Source: Tritrichomonas foetus
Taxonomy: Eukaryota > Parabasalia > Tritrichomonadida > Tritrichomonadidae
Length of the DNA stretch: 64,000 nt
Direction: 5' to 3'
Assembly (NCBI GenBank): GCA_001839685.1
Contig: MLAK01000722.1
Location: 5,469 to 69,468 of the forward strand
A model generated the notes under the pieces. It had not been told where the DNA came from and made no database searches. It saw only the letters and a list, made by a program, of their open reading frames with translations. Of this stretch, positions 12,905 through 57,106 are shown in pieces. A program made the position numbers and the translations under genes. Position 1 is the first letter of the stretch, and every line of letters starts with the position of its first letter.

Positions 12905-13084
12905 TAAGATAAAAAGAATAGAATAGAATCGAAAAAGAAAAAGAAAAGAAAATAATAAAATTAACAAATTTCACGATTTTAACGAATTTTAACTGATTTT
13001 AATGAATTTAAATCTAAGTGTAAAAGTTTATCTTATGAAGAGAAAAATAAAATAAAGAGAGATTTAATATAATATCTCTCTCAT

Positions 13085-14737
13085 TTAAAGTGATTTGATT
13101 GTAACAGTGGATGAACATTCTCCATCAATTGGTTCAACAACAATTGTTGTATATGGGGAACGTGGGAAAACGGTGGTTGTCATTGTGAATGATCCAGCTC
13201 CATCAAAAACTTCAACAGAATGTTTATCAACAAATAATTTAAGTTGATAATGATCAGAAATTTGATATGGACAATGTGTAAGACAACAGAATGCATCACT
13301 AAATGTATGAAGACCACTCTTTAAACCTCGTTCAAATTCAAATCGACCACCTTCAACTTCACGATTAACAACAAGTGTAACTTCTTCTTGTTGATTCTTT
13401 AAAATAATACGAACTTGTTTAGCTGTAACTTTAGAAAGATCAACTGTAGCTAAACATGCTGTTGTTAATTCATCAACTTTATTAACAAATTTTTCTTCAA
13501 AACTTGGAAGTGGATAAGAATATAAATAATGTTCATGTGAACATGGACATTCAACAAGTTTAAAGATACGTGGAATTGAAAAGGCTGAACGGAATTGATG
13601 TGTTGGTGCAATTTTCGCATAATCCCAATTACTCATCCATGCAATAGCTGTGTTAACTGGAGCATTATGGAAACAAACAGTAGCATATGCATCACGACCA
13701 TAATCCATCCATTTTGTATTCCATGGATCACTTTCACAAATAAATTGATGACCATCAAATTCACCAACAAAATATTGTGTAGCTGAACCTCCAAATGGAC
13801 CTCCTGGATTAATATTAAGAAGAATAACCCATTTACCATCAACTTTAAGAACGGCTGGACATTCCCAAACACCATCATGACAACCAATACCACGTCCAAA
13901 TGTACTTTCATATTTCCATTCTTTAAGATTTAGTGATGAATAAATTCGAATACATTGTCCAGTAGCAATGAAAAGATTCCATTGATCATTATAACGAATA
14001 ACAGTTGGATCACGGAAATCACGACAATCAAATGTAACAACTGGATTATTTTCATATTTCGTAAATGTATAACCTCCATCAGTTGAATATGCAATGCTAT
14101 TTGTTTGAATTTGATAATCATCACCTCCTGCATTTGTATAGAAAGCAATAACTGCATTTGCACCAAAACCTGCAGTATTATCTTTATCAATAACAATACT
14201 TCCTGAGAAAATATGACCAAGTTCATCTGGGAAAAGAACAATTGGATGATGTTCATAATGAACGAAATCTTTTGTTGTAGCATGACCCCATGACATATTA
14301 CCCCATGTTGATGCAAATGGGTTATGTTGATAATAAAGATGATAAACACCATCAAGATAGAAAAGACCATTTGGATCATTCATCCAACCAAAAGGTGGTG
14401 TAAAGTGATAATTTGGACGATAATAATCTGTATTTGTTGTATCATAAGAATCAGCAAGTTCAAGTTTAGACCATCCAATTGCTGTTTCAGCGGGTGCTTT
14501 GTAAATTTCAACAACTGTTCCTGCTTCTTCAAGTTCAAGTGGAACATTGTATTCAACTTTTTTAACGGCGAGTCTAATTAAGAAAGTTCTTCTGTATTTA
14601 CTGTTGATTACTGTGAATGGCCTTTCTGGAGCTTCTTCTTCGATTGGGATGAGCAAATATTTTTTGGCTACATCAAACTTCAAGACGACTGGGTTGAAGC
14701 CATCATTATGTGTGCGTGTGATTTGGATTCCAGACAT
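13085..14737 (-). CDS. GH32 beta-fructosidase (invertase-like), copy 1
   Basis: A 550-residue glycoside hydrolase family 32 enzyme that would hydrolyse terminal beta-fructosides such as sucrose or fructans. After an unassigned N-terminal ~105 residues comes the five-bladed propeller with all key blocks: WMNDPNG (118-124, nucleophile Asp121), FSGS (177-180), FRDP (241-244, transition-state Asp243) and WECP (291-294, acid/base Glu292). A C-terminal beta-sandwich ends with the typical VDKHSVEVFDGAG segment (about 505-517). No signal peptide is evident, so it may act inside the cell or leave by another route. An initiator-like TCACT lies 22 bases upstream of the ATG, and the stop is TAAA. GH32 enzymes in trichomonads are generally regarded as laterally acquired from bacteria. 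The exact substrate cannot be read from sequence. Confidence 0.93.
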   Translation of the reverse strand: MSGIQITRTHNDGFNPVVLKFDVAKKYLLIPIEEEAPERPFTVINSKYRRTFLIRLAVKKVEYNVPLELEEAGTVVEIYKAPAETAIGWSKLELADSYDTTNTDYYRPNYHFTPPFGWMNDPNGLFYLDGVYHLYYQHNPFASTWGNMSWGHATTKDFVHYEHHPIVLFPDELGHIFSGSIVIDKDNTAGFGANAVIAFYTNAGGDDYQIQTNSIAYSTDGGYTFTKYENNPVVTFDCRDFRDPTVIRYNDQWNLFIATGQCIRIYSSLNLKEWKYESTFGRGIGCHDGVWECPAVLKVDGKWVILLNINPGGPFGGSATQYFVGEFDGHQFICESDPWNTKWMDYGRDAYATVCFHNAPVNTAIAWMSNWDYAKIAPTHQFRSAFSIPRIFKLVECPCSHEHYLYSYPLPSFEEKFVNKVDELTTACLATVDLSKVTAKQVRIILKNQQEEVTLVVNREVEGGRFEFERGLKSGLHTFSDAFCCLTHCPYQISDHYQLKLFVDKHSVEVFDGAGSFTMTTTVFPRSPYTTIVVEPIDGECSSTVTIKSL

Positions 14738-14754
14738 TCTCTGCGAGGAAAATA

Positions 14755-14766
14755 AAAGTGAAGTGA
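14755..14766 (-). promoter_or_regulatory. Inr-like motif, GH32 copy 1
   Basis: The minus strand reads TCACTTCACTTT here, two overlapping matches to TCA+1Py(T/A). The nearer A (14759) is 22 bases upstream of the ATG at 14737. The following leader (ttattttcctcgcagaga) is identical in both GH32 copies. Confidence 0.55.
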
Positions 14767-14964: not shown

Positions 14965-14970
14965 TCACTT
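14965..14970 (+). promoter_or_regulatory. Inr-like motif, GH32 copy 2
   Basis: TCACTT with A+1 at 14967, 20 bases upstream of the ATG at 14987, in the same position relative to the shared leader as in copy 1. The sequence further upstream differs from copy 1. Each copy thus keeps its own core promoter inside the ~215-bp spacer. Confidence 0.55.
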
Positions 14971-14986
14971 ATTTTCCTCGCAGAGA

Positions 14987-16639
14987 ATGTCTGGAATCCA
15001 AATCACACGCACACATAATGATGGCTTCAACCCAGTCGTCTTGAAGTTTGATGTAGCCAAAAAATATTTGCTCATCCCAATCGAAGAAGAAGCTCCAGAA
15101 AGGCCATTCACAGTAATCAACAGTAAATACAGAAGAACTTTCTTAATTAGACTCGCCGTTAAAAAAGTTGAATACAATGTTCCACTTGAACTTGAAGAAG
15201 CAGGAACAGTTGTTGAAATTTACAAAGCACCCGCTGAAACAGCAATTGGATGGTCTAAACTTGAACTTGCTGATTCTTATGATACAACAAATACAGATTA
15301 TTATCGTCCAAATTATCACTTTACACCACCTTTTGGTTGGATGAATGATCCAAATGGTCTTTTCTATCTTGATGGTGTTTATCATCTTTATTATCAACAT
15401 AACCCATTTGCATCAACATGGGGTAATATGTCATGGGGTCATGCTACAACAAAAGATTTCGTTCATTATGAACATCATCCAATTGTTCTTTTCCCAGATG
15501 AACTTGGTCATATTTTCTCAGGAAGTATTGTTATTGATAAAGATAATACTGCAGGTTTTGGTGCAAATGCAGTTATTGCTTTCTATACAAATGCAGGAGG
15601 TGATGATTATCAAATTCAAACAAATAGCATTGCATATTCAACTGATGGAGGTTATACATTTACGAAATATGAAAATAATCCAGTTGTTACATTTGATTGT
15701 CGTGATTTCCGTGATCCAACTGTTATTCGTTATAATGATCAATGGAATCTTTTCATTGCTACTGGACAATGTATTCGAATTTATTCATCACTAAATCTTA
15801 AAGAATGGAAATATGAAAGTACATTTGGACGTGGTATTGGTTGTCATGATGGTGTTTGGGAATGTCCAGCCGTTCTTAAAGTTGATGGTAAATGGGTTAT
15901 TCTTCTTAATATTAATCCAGGAGGTCCATTTGGAGGTTCAGCTACACAATATTTTGTTGGTGAATTTGATGGTCATCAATTTATTTGTGAAAGTGATCCA
16001 TGGAATACAAAATGGATGGATTATGGTCGTGATGCATATGCTACTGTTTGTTTCCATAATGCTCCAGTTAACACAGCTATTGCATGGATGAGTAATTGGG
16101 ATTATGCGAAAATTGCACCAACACATCAATTCCGTTCAGCCTTTTCAATTCCACGTATCTTTAAACTTGTTGAATGTCCATGTTCACATGAACATTATTT
16201 ATATTCTTATCCACTTCCAAGTTTTGAAGAAAAATTTGTTAATAAAGTTGATGAATTAACAACAGCATGTTTAGCTACAGTTGATCTTTCTAAAGTTACA
16301 GCTAAACAAGTTCGTATTATTTTAAAGAATCAACAAGAAGAAGTTACACTTGTTGTTAATCGTGAAGTTGAAGGTGGTCGATTTGAATTTGAACGAGGTT
16401 TAAAGAGTGGTCTTCATACATTTAGTGATGCATTCTGTTGTCTTACACATTGTCCATATCAAATTTCTGATCATTATCAACTTAAATTATTTGTTGATAA
16501 ACATTCTGTTGAAGTTTTTGATGGAGCTGGATCATTCACAATGACAACCACCGTTTTCCCACGTTCCCCATATACAACAATTGTTGTTGAACCAATTGAT
16601 GGAGAATGTTCATCCACTGTTACAATCAAATCACTTTAA
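14987..16639 (+). CDS. GH32 beta-fructosidase (invertase-like), copy 2
   Basis: Encodes exactly the same 550-residue protein as the minus-strand copy at 13085-14737, with nucleophile Asp121 in WMNDPNG, Asp243 in FRDP and Glu292 in WECP. The frame is open upstream to a TTG at 14876, but the ATG at 14987 matches the start of the other copy and sits just after the conserved leader, so it is the better start. The stop is followed by A (TAAA), which in trichomonads can double as the polyadenylation signal. The two genes are head to head, so both are transcribed outwards from the central spacer. Complete identity implies doubled dosage rather than divergence in function. Confidence 0.93.
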   Translation: MSGIQITRTHNDGFNPVVLKFDVAKKYLLIPIEEEAPERPFTVINSKYRRTFLIRLAVKKVEYNVPLELEEAGTVVEIYKAPAETAIGWSKLELADSYDTTNTDYYRPNYHFTPPFGWMNDPNGLFYLDGVYHLYYQHNPFASTWGNMSWGHATTKDFVHYEHHPIVLFPDELGHIFSGSIVIDKDNTAGFGANAVIAFYTNAGGDDYQIQTNSIAYSTDGGYTFTKYENNPVVTFDCRDFRDPTVIRYNDQWNLFIATGQCIRIYSSLNLKEWKYESTFGRGIGCHDGVWECPAVLKVDGKWVILLNINPGGPFGGSATQYFVGEFDGHQFICESDPWNTKWMDYGRDAYATVCFHNAPVNTAIAWMSNWDYAKIAPTHQFRSAFSIPRIFKLVECPCSHEHYLYSYPLPSFEEKFVNKVDELTTACLATVDLSKVTAKQVRIILKNQQEEVTLVVNREVEGGRFEFERGLKSGLHTFSDAFCCLTHCPYQISDHYQLKLFVDKHSVEVFDGAGSFTMTTTVFPRSPYTTIVVEPIDGECSSTVTIKSL

Positions 16640-17010
16640 ATGAGAGAGATATTATATTAAATCTCTCTTTATTTTATTTTTCTCTTCATAAGATAAACTT
16701 TTACACTTAGATTTAAATTCATTAAAATCAGTTAAAATTCGTTAAAATCGTGAAATTTGTTAATTTTATTATTTTATTTTCTTTTTCGATTCTATTCTAT
16801 TCTATTCTATTCTTTTTTTATTCTATGACACCAATGTAAATTGTGTCATACTTTTCATTCTAGTTCAATTTGCCAGAACCAAAGTTAAGGAGAATTCTAC
16901 ATTGTGAGGTATCTAAAAAATGGGAAATCAAATAAACTCAAATAAAAATATCAAGTTTATAATTTAACAAATATATAGATTATGCTTTATTATATAATTC
17001 AATAAAAAAA

Positions 17011-52698: not shown

Positions 52699-54057
52699 AT
52701 GTCTTTTCCAAAACACGATCAAGCTCCAAAATCCGAATTAGAAGATTTTAAAGGTAAGACATTCCTTATTTCCACTCTCCATCCACTTGCTTTTGGTGCC
52801 GGTGGAATTAAAATCGAAGCCCTATCGCCACTAGATTCTGCAACCGACGCTGAATTCAAAGATCTGTTTATGAGCAAGTGTAAAGAATGTTTTAAATTAT
52901 GCGATTTTTCCGAAAAAGAATGCGACGAGCAAGCAAAACAGTATAAAACTGGCTATTTAATGGAATTCGAATCAGTTTTTACAAAACCGAGATTCTTCAG
53001 AAATATTGATGAAGAAATGATAGCAACTTTTTTGAAAATGGCAAAAATTAACATCGCACGAGCCATTCCATCATTCAAAATTGTATCATCAATTGATGTT
53101 CCAGATAATGTCTTTGACATTTCCTGGGCACATTTGAATTTGGTTTATAATGATCTAAAGGCATTATTTAATAGCAAACTCGTTTCTCGTATCAAAGATG
53201 TTGATTCGTTAATTTCTATATTTGTAAACAATACATATTCAAGTGATGAACGAGAACGACAGTCTGTTAAAGAATGTCTCTCTTTATTATATTCCAAATT
53301 GACCGATCAAAAAGCCAAATTCATCAAAGCATCGATAAATCAAATCCGACTCGGATTTTGTTCTTCTGAGCTTTTAGGATTTGTGTATGATTTTGCTCCA
53401 GATGTCCCAGCATTATTCTCGACAGAACTTGAATCAATTTACAATACAATTTTGAGTTTACATAACTCACCGCTTTATATGAAATTTGCTGGAGCTTTAA
53501 CCCAATGTGTGACTCGATTCATTCGTACTAAAAAATCGCTTCTTGAGAATACTATTCTCTTCCTTGTTAAGCATTGGCCAAAAGCTGGAATAAAGAAACA
53601 AGTAAATATAACAAGTGAACTCGAAAGTATCATGCAAAATTTTGCAGAAGATCCAATTTCTCGTGAATGTGCATCTGCACTTTTCCAAAGATTGAGTGTT
53701 TTATTTGTTGAACCTGGAGTCGATATTGCTGAAGCGGCTCTTAGCTTTGTAATTGGTCAAGGAAATGAATCAACACTTATTGAATACATCGATCTTGCAA
53801 TGAAACAATTAATTCCAGCATTATGTTCCTGTAAGAAGAAACATTGGAATGTCTTCATCCAAGATGATGCAAACATTGTTCTTGACTTACTGGCAAAGGT
53901 GAATCCACCACTTTATACCAAAACTTTACAGGAAATCATAGAAACACAAAAACAGCAAAAAGTGAATCATAAAAAGAGAGCAAAATGTTGGGCACTCATT
54001 ACGGAGATGGCCAAAAATAACAATCCCGATTTTACATCAGATATTCTTAAACTATAA
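52699..54057 (+). CDS. PP2A regulatory subunit B56 (B')
   Basis: 452 residues of HEAT-like helices typical of the B56/PPP2R5 regulatory subunit, which directs protein phosphatase 2A to substrates. Matches along the family order include FDISWAHLNLVYN (WPHLQLVYE in animals), DERERQSVKECLSLLYSKL (RERDFLKTTLHRIYGKF), IRLGF...LLGFVYDFAP, FLVKHWPKAG (LLKYWPKTH), a SELESIMQ block, CASALFQRLSVLF...AEAALSFV, KKHWNVFIQDDANIVLDLL (KTHWNKTIHGLIYNAL) and a terminal RAKCWALITEMAKNNNP (REEAWVKIENLAKANP). The acidic-groove residues that bind LxxIxE motifs were not individually verified. Length is normal for the conserved core with short tails. Confidence 0.93.
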   Translation: MSFPKHDQAPKSELEDFKGKTFLISTLHPLAFGAGGIKIEALSPLDSATDAEFKDLFMSKCKECFKLCDFSEKECDEQAKQYKTGYLMEFESVFTKPRFFRNIDEEMIATFLKMAKINIARAIPSFKIVSSIDVPDNVFDISWAHLNLVYNDLKALFNSKLVSRIKDVDSLISIFVNNTYSSDERERQSVKECLSLLYSKLTDQKAKFIKASINQIRLGFCSSELLGFVYDFAPDVPALFSTELESIYNTILSLHNSPLYMKFAGALTQCVTRFIRTKKSLLENTILFLVKHWPKAGIKKQVNITSELESIMQNFAEDPISRECASALFQRLSVLFVEPGVDIAEAALSFVIGQGNESTLIEYIDLAMKQLIPALCSCKKKHWNVFIQDDANIVLDLLAKVNPPLYTKTLQEIIETQKQQKVNHKKRAKCWALITEMAKNNNPDFTSDILKL

Positions 54058-55847: not shown

Positions 55848-57106
55848 ATGAATTCAAACGAAAAGAAAGCATTTAAACTATGCTGCCAAGGAAACGAAGA
55901 ACAATTTACACTTCTTGTACCATCAGTTGTAGAATTAAATAGACAAGTTTTTTCTTAATATTTATATATCGACCATTGAATTTAACCACGTCATCCTTGA
56001 AAATCCATCATTTTTACATGCTGCTACAGTACATCAACGTGATAAAATTGCACAGCTCGTTATCGATTTAGGAATTAATTTGAATCTTCGTGACGTTCTT
56101 TTTTTTAACTTATAACAAAGGAATTATTTTGAATATTCATCATACAGCCGTTTGTATTGCATGCATATATGGCGTGCCATCTATTCTTCGTATTCTTATT
56201 GAATCAGGTGCTGATATTTTTTTGAATGATTATGTTTTATTTTAATCTTTTTTAATGTTTCATTTTTTTGTTTTTGGTGTTTTTTATGATATTTTTATTT
56301 TGCTCCAATTCACTGGGCAGTCATGAAAAATCAAAGACAATGTGCTGAATATTTAATCCAAGCAGGTGCTGATCCTTGTGCACATAATTTTTGTGTTTTC
56401 TTTTGTTTTTTTAATCGAGTTACTTTTTCATTTTTTTAATCGTGAACCAATTCATTGTGCTGCTAGATATGGCATTATTCCAATGATTGATTTTCTTATG
56501 TCACAAGGTGTTAATATTAATACACAAACTACAGATGGTGTTTTTTAGTTAATATTTTATCGAACTCCTTTATATGAAGCAACATCAGCTACTGATGAAG
56601 ACACGAAGAAAGATGGAAGAGTTCAAGCTGTTAATGTTTTGCTTAAATATGGTGCTGATCCAAAAATTGCTGATCTTTCTGGAAGAACTCCTCTTCACTG
56701 GGCTTCTTATTATGGACATGATAAAATAGCGCATGTTCTCATTCCAAAATCAAATATTCGTGTTCAAGATGATGAAGGTGTCACTCCTCTTCATTTGGCA
56801 TCATATTCAGGAAACTTAGAAATAGCACAAACTCTCATTGAAAATGGTGCTGATATTAGTGCTCTTGATATGCATTTAAGAACACCGCTTCACTATGCTG
56901 CTAGAAATGGAAATCGGTCTCTGATTGATTATTTGCTTCAGAATAAAGCAAATCCAGATGCAGTTGATGATGCTGGTGACACTCCACCAAACTTACTTGA
57001 AGGACCACAAGCTAACGAAAACCAAGAAGCGATGCAAAGACACTCTGATCAAAATCGCCAAAAGCTCAAATCAAAGAACCAATCAAATTCTTCAATGCGT
57101 GTTTAA
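55848..57106 (+). CDS. Ankyrin-repeat protein split by five intron-like segments
   Basis: The ATG at 55848 begins MNSNEKKAFKLCC, a typical trichomonad ankyrin N-terminus. The continuous frame stops after 36 codons, but ankyrin coding resumes after each of five T-rich segments (55947-55965, 56095-56113, 56234-56298, 56395-56440, 56540-56560). The six coding pieces are 99, 129, 120, 96, 99 and 546 bases, all multiples of three, and join to 362 residues plus stop. About eight ankyrin repeats result, e.g. APIHWAV, REPIHCAARYG, RTPLYEA, RTPLHWASYYGHDKIAHVL and VTPLHLASYSG. Joining at the proposed ends restores normal repeat spacing, for example NTQTTDG|RTPLY. The last three repeats need no splicing. 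The C-terminus is Gln/Asn/Lys-rich. If the segments are not removed, the gene is a pseudogene; their uniform placement argues against random decay. Confidence 0.65.
55947..55965 (+). other. Intron-like segment A (19 nt)
   Basis: Reads GTTTTTTCTTAATATTTAT between CAA and ATA codons. It contains an in-frame TAA and changes frame. Starts GTTTTTT and ends TTTAT; no AG at the 3' end. Confidence 0.5.
56095..56113 (+). other. Intron-like segment B (19 nt)
   Basis: Reads GTTCTTTTTTTTAACTTAT between GAC and AACAAAGGA. The join gives D-N-K-G, the usual ankyrin loop. A branch-point-like TTAAC lies close to the 3' end. A longer alternative ending at ACAAAG gives AG but leaves the wrong frame. Confidence 0.5.
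56234..56298 (+). other. Intron-like segment C (65 nt, three units)
   Basis: Lies between TAT and TTTGCTCCA. It divides into three units of 23, 22 and 20 bases that each begin GTTT (56234, 56257, 56279). The third unit closely resembles segment E: both are GTTTTTT-A-x-x...AT(A)TTTTAT and both follow GGT. The exact 3' boundary is uncertain by a few bases. Confidence 0.45.
56395..56440 (+). other. Intron-like segment D (46 nt, two units)
   Basis: Lies between TGT and CGTGAACCA. Two units begin GTT at 56395 and 56419, and both end TTTTTTTAAT immediately before CGA or CGT. CGA at 56416-56418 could be a one-codon exon between tandem introns. Confidence 0.45.
56540..56560 (+). other. Intron-like segment E (21 nt)
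   Basis: Lies between GGT and CGAACTCCT. It starts GTTTTTTAG and ends TAATATTTTAT. Its removal restores D-G-R-T-P-L exactly at ankyrin consensus spacing. It includes an in-frame TAG. Confidence 0.55.

Follow-up and report, generated by a model that had tools for sequence, protein, structure and literature searches.

Short T-rich units in ankyrin-repeat genes of Tritrichomonas foetus have the marks of an undescribed intron-like class

The window analyzed here, a 64,000-nucleotide (nt) stretch of the Tritrichomonas foetus genome (assembly GCA_001839685.1, contig MLAK01000722.1; G000:C332:5469-69468 in the assembly as searched, 63.7 Mb in 1064 contigs), holds Rpb1, kinase, B56, and GH32 genes that are single open frames, and an ankyrin-repeat gene that is not. 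The ankyrin gene runs on the plus strand from an ATG at 55848 to a TAA at 57106, and in three-frame translation its frame is interrupted by T-rich stretches. Translation confirms the frame breaks that an earlier note on this DNA had placed at 55947-55965 (19 nt), 56095-56113 (19 nt), 56234-56298 (65 nt), 56395-56440 (46 nt), and 56540-56560 (21 nt), all five of them T-rich, starting with GTT, and lying after a complete codon. The count of insertions rises from five to about nine, because an 18-nt unit at 56123-56140 had been overlooked and the 65-nt and probably the 46-nt stretch divide. In total the gene comprises nine units and ten coding pieces, each piece divisible by three in length, and the pieces sum to 1080 nt, or 359 codons and a stop, instead of the 362 codons first counted (Table 1).

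The second interruption is parsed as 19 nt, AAC AAA GGA, and 18 nt, and omitting 56123-56140 yields LNLRD-NKG-H-TAVC, the standard ankyrin loop length. The third, taken in the earlier note as one intron of 65 nt, is better parsed as three units (20 + AAT + 19 + GGT + 20); neither of these two gains was reached by any of 40 shuffles. The 46-nt fourth interruption probably divides likewise, being readable on its end signals as 21 + CGA + 22 nt, although dividing it brings no improvement in protein score over a single long insert (3.5 vs 3.3). Taken singly, three later coding pieces are detected as ankyrin by Pfam, and three earlier short ones give nothing.

Table 1. Coding pieces, units, and micro-exons of the interrupted ankyrin-repeat gene (window positions)
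Feature	Positions	Strand	Remarks
Coding piece 1, N-terminal part	55848..55946	+	33 codons; translated alone; no Pfam match
Unit 1, 19 nt, GTTTTTTCTTAATATTTAT	55947..55965	+	Precedes first repeat, so ends not pinned by repeat spacing
Coding piece 2	55966..56094	+	43 codons; its spacing marks it as the first ankyrin-like repeat; alone without Pfam match
Unit 2a, 19 nt, GTTCTTTTTTTTAACTTAT	56095..56113	+	Parse gain 12.6, 0/40 shuffles
Micro-exon NKG, 9 nt	56114..56122	+	LNLRDNKGH restored
Unit 2b, 18 nt, ATTATTTTGAATATTCAT	56123..56140	+	Overlooked in the earlier note; same parse as 2a
Coding piece 4	56141..56233	+	31 codons; second repeat, profile score 26.8
Unit 3a, about 20 nt	56234..56253	+	Parse gain 7.3, 0/40 shuffles; 3' end uncertain, no yUnAy end
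Probable one-codon micro-exon AAT	56254..56256	+	Multi-unit parse
Unit 3b, about 19 nt	56257..56275	+	Multi-unit parse; 3' end uncertain, no yUnAy end
One-codon micro-exon GGT, the conserved loop glycine	56276..56278	+	Multi-unit parse
Unit 3c, 20 nt, GTTTTTTATGATATTTTTAT	56279..56298	+	Multi-unit parse
Coding piece 7	56299..56394	+	32 codons; third repeat; Pfam Ank 56299-56382
Unit 4a, 21 nt, GTTTTCTTTTGTTTTTTTAAT	56395..56415	+	Separation from 4b based on end signals
Possible one-codon micro-exon CGA (R)	56416..56418	+	P0003 compatible with the same layout, judging from its protein letters
Unit 4b, 22 nt, GTTACTTTTTCATTTTTTTAAT	56419..56440	+	End signals
Coding piece 9	56441..56539	+	33 codons; fourth repeat; Pfam Ank_3 56438-56539
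Unit 5, 21 nt, GTTTTTTAGTTAATATTTTAT	56540..56560	+	Empty in P0004 and P0061, filled in P0001-P0003
Coding piece 10	56561..57106	+	181 codons and stop, uninterrupted; remaining repeats and C-terminus; Pfam Ank E=1.3e-32

Such interruptions are not peculiar to the window gene and were found on many contigs, within one gene family. Our sequence sample of about 0.3 Mb consisted of the best ankyrin matches and of stretches of at most 9 kb chosen for ankyrin matches in short open frames. In it, 58 ankyrin regions were decoded against a 33-position ankyrin profile built from 148 uninterrupted repeats of the same genome, with inserts of 14-110 nt allowed at any codon and in any phase and with no preference for length or end signals; the output was 138 inserts, some of them spurious (in non-ankyrin or poorly matching stretches). 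The decoded loci hold 391 distinct junctions between repeats, none longer than 105 nt, among them 300 uninterrupted (24-36 nt), 61 longer and T-rich, and 30 longer and not T-rich, and the share of interrupted junctions is not a genome-wide rate since the loci were partly picked for short frames. The T-rich junctions measure 39-53 nt (26), 63-73 nt (20), 81-92 nt (11), or 97-104 nt (4), with none of the 61 at 54-62 or 74-80 nt, so that subtracting a normal junction of 27-30 nt leaves insert lengths in steps of about 20, 40, and 60 nt. Every one of the 30 short T-rich inserts (15-26 nt) lies in the beta-hairpin between repeats (codons 28-32), as do 62 of the 70 T-rich inserts of up to 70 nt, in agreement with the inter-repeat loops named in the earlier note, and omitting the inserts re-establishes regular ankyrin spacing, which upholds that note's rejection of random decay.

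For single inserts (n=37), the length was set by the repeat spacing, and the position, chosen by expectation-maximisation, could move only among placements that fit the protein about as well. They begin G(25)/A(9)-T(35)-T(28)-T(27), end T(30)-T(35)-N-A(32)-T(31), and lie in phase 0 in 31 of 37 cases. Twelve have one or two possible positions; when the three of these that were set aside as outside the class (L018, L043, and L044) are removed, a 5' G is present in eight of the remaining nine and a 3' NAT likewise in eight; the end signal is therefore not produced by sliding. A list of 64 units was then selected by hand, combining 28 of the 37 singles with 36 units that belong to arrays, namely to 15 of the 18 that no shuffle equaled (below); the singles dropped were T-poor, ambiguous, or, in the case of L005, in phase 1 (L004 1337, L005 1470, L018, L028, L043, L044, L048 4952, L050, and L055 711). 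The listed units are 17-22 nt long (mode 19) and start with GT (48/64) or AT (16/64), and 54 end in AT. A branch-site-like yUnAy forms the final five bases of 54/64 units, with no spacer after it, as against a shuffled mean of 5.7 and a maximum of 15 in 1000, a count that depends in part on the expectation-maximisation boundaries and the hand-selected list. T exceeds A on the sense strand in 62/64 units, and 52/64 shift the frame or carry a stop, the other 12 being stop-free multiples of three. The inserts therefore do form the systematic class proposed earlier, T-rich on the sense strand, starting with GT or sometimes AT, mostly ending in NAT, and mostly lying between codons.

A scan with the end profile alone, for insert sites flanked on each side by open frames of at least 50 codons, covered most of the sampled sequence, 649 kb counting both strands; it omitted L001-L006, L009-L011, L025, and L027, all of which except L002, L003, L010, and L027 overlap other loci. 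It returned 21 split frames. Eighteen adjoin ankyrin repeats, and phase 0 accounts for 15 of these (binomial P = 1.9e-5 vs 1/3, which overstates the case because many of the sites share the same repeat position and are not independent); the three away from ankyrin repeats, one in phase 0, are probably chance.

The longer T-rich junctions can mostly be read as rows of such units. A multi-unit parser that used the end profile and left the phase unconstrained was applied to 31 of them, with 40 shuffles per insert, and gave a two- or three-unit parse in 27. The gain over a single long insert was reached by 0/40 shuffles in 18 of the 27 (in two of the 18 the gain is small, 0.6 and 1.5), by 1/40 in three, and by 3-15/40 in six. 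The clearest row, in L056, reads 22 nt, AAT, 21 nt, AATGGA, 22 nt and gives FNPQTNNGS before TPLH; other rows are 20 + GATGGT + 19 and 19 + AATGAAGGA + 19 in L006, 20 + TTCGAA + 20 in L045, and 19 + GAT + 19 + GAT + 19 in L003. The spacers of 1-3 codons provide residues of the ankyrin loop DxxGx. For the inserts of 36-65 nt, single long introns are disfavored, if not everywhere, by the quantised lengths and by the loops that the parses restore. An origin of the rows by tandem duplication is not supported, the identity between neighbors being 0.605 (21 pairs) vs 0.604 between arrays; one neighbor pair, in L045 (identity 0.85), looks duplicated.

Relatives of the window gene vary in their inserts. 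The metagenomic protein P0001 matches 96% of the last coding piece (181 codons) at 89% identity and has a 19-nt T-rich frame-shifting insert at the unit 5 site. At that site P0002 and P0003 have seven extra in-frame residues, a 21-nt T-rich insert that is read through, and P0004 (63% identical) and P0061 (64%) are exactly empty (DGRTPLYEA), with P0061 carrying an apparently T-rich frame-shifting stretch at another loop (DDE). Deduced from the protein letters, the filled sites of P0001-P0003 end TAY, CAY, and GAY, so that A occupies -2 and a pyrimidine -1, matching the genome of the window. Conserved coding pieces with inserts that are variable in length and sequence and sometimes absent make up an intron pattern, and its presence in metagenomic sources counts against assembly error. 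A search with residues 1-110 of P0003 matched P0003 and P0002 only, and viral and prokaryote collections gave no useful nucleotide relative (L061 is a GC-rich bacterial ankyrin gene).

Canonical-looking introns seem to coexist with the units in the same genome. In L053 (4131-4241) GCA is followed by GTATGT...TCTAACATGCAG, the codon GAT, a 19-nt unit, and CGA, and in L012 (about 1100-1140), where no 5' end was identified, ...TCTAACACACAG is followed by GAC, a 19-nt unit, and CGA; in each of these two loci, on different contigs, a single codon (GAT or GAC) separates a canonical branch-site/AG 3' end from the 19-nt unit downstream. Sequences of the form GT..TACTAACAACAG also occur in sister ankyrin loci, and L026 has one type-B-like sequence, GTATTTTTAGTTACTAACAACAG. 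The earlier note had held known parabasalid signals to be absent, which is right for the inserts, which lack the ACTAACACACAG-type 3' end and almost never end in AG, but not for the organism, given GTATGT..TCTAACATGCAG and GT..TACTAACAACAG in the sister loci. The Trichomonas type A 3' element ACTAACACACAG is absent from the listed units, and genome-wide it is not clearly enriched (17 matches vs 11 for the reversed control). Of the small nuclear RNAs (snRNAs), covered by L031-L033, U2 with GUAGUA is present at two nearly identical loci on different contigs and U6 with ACAGAG at one, slightly below the Rfam gathering score.

Short frames appear concentrated in ankyrin genes. Judged by eye among the matches listed, frames below 250 amino acids number 36 of about 150 for ankyrin, 1 of 150 for WD40, and 5 of about 150 for LRR_5, and kinases below 300 amino acids number 0 of the 135 listed, one kinase having an inner TAG; as the comparison rests on best matches, it favors intact genes and under-counts broken ones in every family. 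That the interruptions are a feature of all genes is not borne out by the kinase, WD40, and LRR_5 matches.

Removal of the units at all is probable on the sequence evidence, and we somewhat favor reading the T-rich stretches as micro-introns, about 20 nt long, that are removed from pre-mRNA, likely by the spliceosome or a derivative. The sense-strand T bias points to the RNA or translation level and not to DNA, and a GT or AT start together with a terminal yUnAy suggests a splice-type recognition that uses the branch-site-like motif as the 3' boundary. A unit would be defined by a 5' (G/A)T followed by a U-run and by a 3' branch-site-like yUnAy with no AG, and the exon junction would lie one nucleotide past the branch-site-like A. 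Units would be excised one at a time, two or three neighbors leaving micro-exons of 1-3 codons, and the agent would most likely be the spliceosome of the organism itself or a machinery derived from it. We infer from sequence features each of the steps in this account: removal, its place at the RNA level, the spliceosome, and the terminal A as branch point. Put more generally, we hold the matter evenly balanced as to whether this is a modular class of about 20 nt, in codon register and in one gene family, that is removed or skipped without a 3' AG by way of either a fused branch site and 3' splice site or a separate frame-coupled process.

Several observations weigh against micro-introns. AG stands at the 3' end of one of the 64 listed units, which is not what U2-type introns would give, and shifting the boundaries does not rescue a GT-AG reading, AG ending 0/28 listed singles at protein-compatible boundaries; a few singles (e.g. 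L038 4274 and L005 1260) permit a longer GT/AT..AG reading at the cost of one residue, a solution unsuited to most. The strong excess of phase 0 is unusual for spliceosomal introns, as is concentration in one gene family and in ankyrin loops, and one-codon exons between 20-nt introns are hard for a spliceosome, as are the two 20-nt units of L047 (4569-4635, minus-strand count) that abut with no codon between them. The 3' ends of units 3a and 3b of the window gene are not of the usual kind and do not fit, a single long insert scored higher in 4 of the 27 parses, four long inserts have no multi-unit parse at all, and the yUnAy count leans in part on chosen boundaries and a chosen list. U1 was not found by Rfam search, the best E being 2.17 in a search to which 9 of 14 control genomes also respond.

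Known short introns offer partial parallels. Type B introns of Trichomonas vaginalis and T. stableri are 23-28 nt long, of the form GTWYWD..TCTAAC..AACAG with the end TCTAAC-H(1,2)-AACAG, occur in all three phases, number at most two per gene, and lie partly in repeat-protein genes (PMC6260720, PMC12316389), and related parabasalids splice 23-nt GT..CTAA..AG introns (PMC12316389). The units share with type B introns a parabasalid host, very short size, a start that is mostly GT here, a poly-T body, and a branch site (here a branch-site-like motif) near the 3' end; they differ in being 17-22 nt long, in ending at the branch-like motif with AG in 1/64, in lying mostly in phase 0, and in forming rows with exons of 1-3 codons. 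In type B introns only 7-8 nt separate the branch adenosine from the 3' splice site (PMC6260720), so such units could conceivably have arisen by losing this tail. A candidate intron of Giardia is, like the units, GT-AT and in a metamonad coding gene (30 nt, spliced in only 1.3%; PMC10711314), but it is single and not part of a T-rich, repeated, phase-0 class. Ciliate ultra-short introns keep GT-AG and are not known to be limited to one gene family or phase. Their likeness to the units lies in small size (about 25 bp) and in their place in coding regions (PMC5014332, PMC2633312). Noncanonical introns of euglenids and diplonemids do without GT-AG and coexist with canonical introns and a U2-type spliceosome (PMC12621601, PMC6221363), but their ends are variable and can be brought close by base pairing, whereas the units have no such structure and a strong end consensus. 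In the PMC literature, which leaves out preprints and most subscription papers, we did not find GT..NAT phase-0 units of about 20 nt described.

Translational bypassing, in which the units would stay in the mRNA and be hopped over by ribosomes as in Magnusiomyces capitatus mitochondria or phage T4 gene 60, is unlikely but accounts for some features that splicing does not. Hopping, and not splicing, predicts the position between codons (15/18 split frames, 31/37 singles), single-codon spacers would be natural for a ribosome, and a glycine codon often stands before a unit. Up to three hops in succession would be needed, however, with one codon read in between, and the 5' GT/AT and 3' yUnAy look like splice signals; no nuclear case of bypassing is known. 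The M. capitatus and T4 gene 60 systems likewise have several between-codon inserts per gene and no removal from DNA (PMC5009743), but they differ from the units, which lie in nuclear-type genes, have branch-like 3' ends, and lack matched triplets. With matching take-off and landing codons an insert would end in the same triplet as stands just before it; this holds for 0 of the 28 listed singles, a result still compatible with hopping because several M. capitatus cases lack a perfect match (PMC5009743).

Removal from RNA by a non-spliceosomal machinery, an endonuclease with a ligase, would fit the non-AG ends, codon register, micro-exons, and fixed size of about 20 nt, all unlike spliceosomal introns, and noncanonical classes do exist in euglenids and diplonemids (PMC12621601). 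We rate it a little lower, with only a slim chance of being right, as no structure joins the unit ends (mean minimum free energy with flanks -3.1 vs -3.4 shuffled, n=30) and the motif at the end of the units resembles a branch site.

Decaying genes, assembly error, or translated low-complexity inserts are doubtful in turn. Hairpin loops tolerate insertions, 12/64 units are stop-free multiples of three, and P0002 and P0003 read through theirs; against this, 52/64 units shift the frame or bear a stop while the coding pieces are intact, the last piece is conserved in P0001, the lengths are quantised and the ends conserved, and the class recurs on many contigs and in metagenomic relatives. Elimination at the DNA level, an option that the earlier note had kept, would have germline-limited inserts assembled by chance, on the pattern of the short, AT-rich, precisely placed internal eliminated sequences of ciliates, and is very improbable in view of the T over A bias in 62/64 units, of unit ends of the form R..AT with no TA direct repeat at both ends, of metagenomic relatives that carry inserts too, and of parabasalids not being known to have a germline-soma split.

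Some further observations concern other genes. Window positions 12937-14755 and 14969-16787 form a perfect 1819-nt inverted repeat, 100% complementary and 213 nt apart, in which a gene for a GH32 glycoside hydrolase with a DUF4980 domain is present twice; it goes back either to an inverted duplication that happened very recently or to a palindrome made in assembly, and the GH32/DUF4980 gene is possibly bacterial in origin. For the PP2A B56 gene (window 52699-54057), all 11 matches listed besides itself come from metagenome-type sources. Elsewhere in the genome, uL3 at G000:C1047:107139-108247 and C393:37043-37555 is split (profile 1-268, then 316-369) or lies inside an open frame of 3392 amino acids, and three full-length uL3 copies are also present. 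The uL3 protein matches chain 5xy3_B, from the large ribosomal subunit of Trichomonas vaginalis, at 567.5 bits, with the next chain at 447.5 bits, in keeping with a parabasalid genome.

Annotation of genomes with such units would truncate ankyrin proteins, and the database proteins related to the window gene are indeed fragmentary or include translated inserts. If removed, the units would fall below the shortest published parabasalid intron in length (23 nt, PMC12316389), and the AG rule would be broken for a whole class of introns in a genome that seemingly also uses canonical ones. Removal would also raise testable questions about how small the distance between branch point and 3' splice site can become, how one-codon exons are handled, and how the removal of introns may be tied to codon phase.
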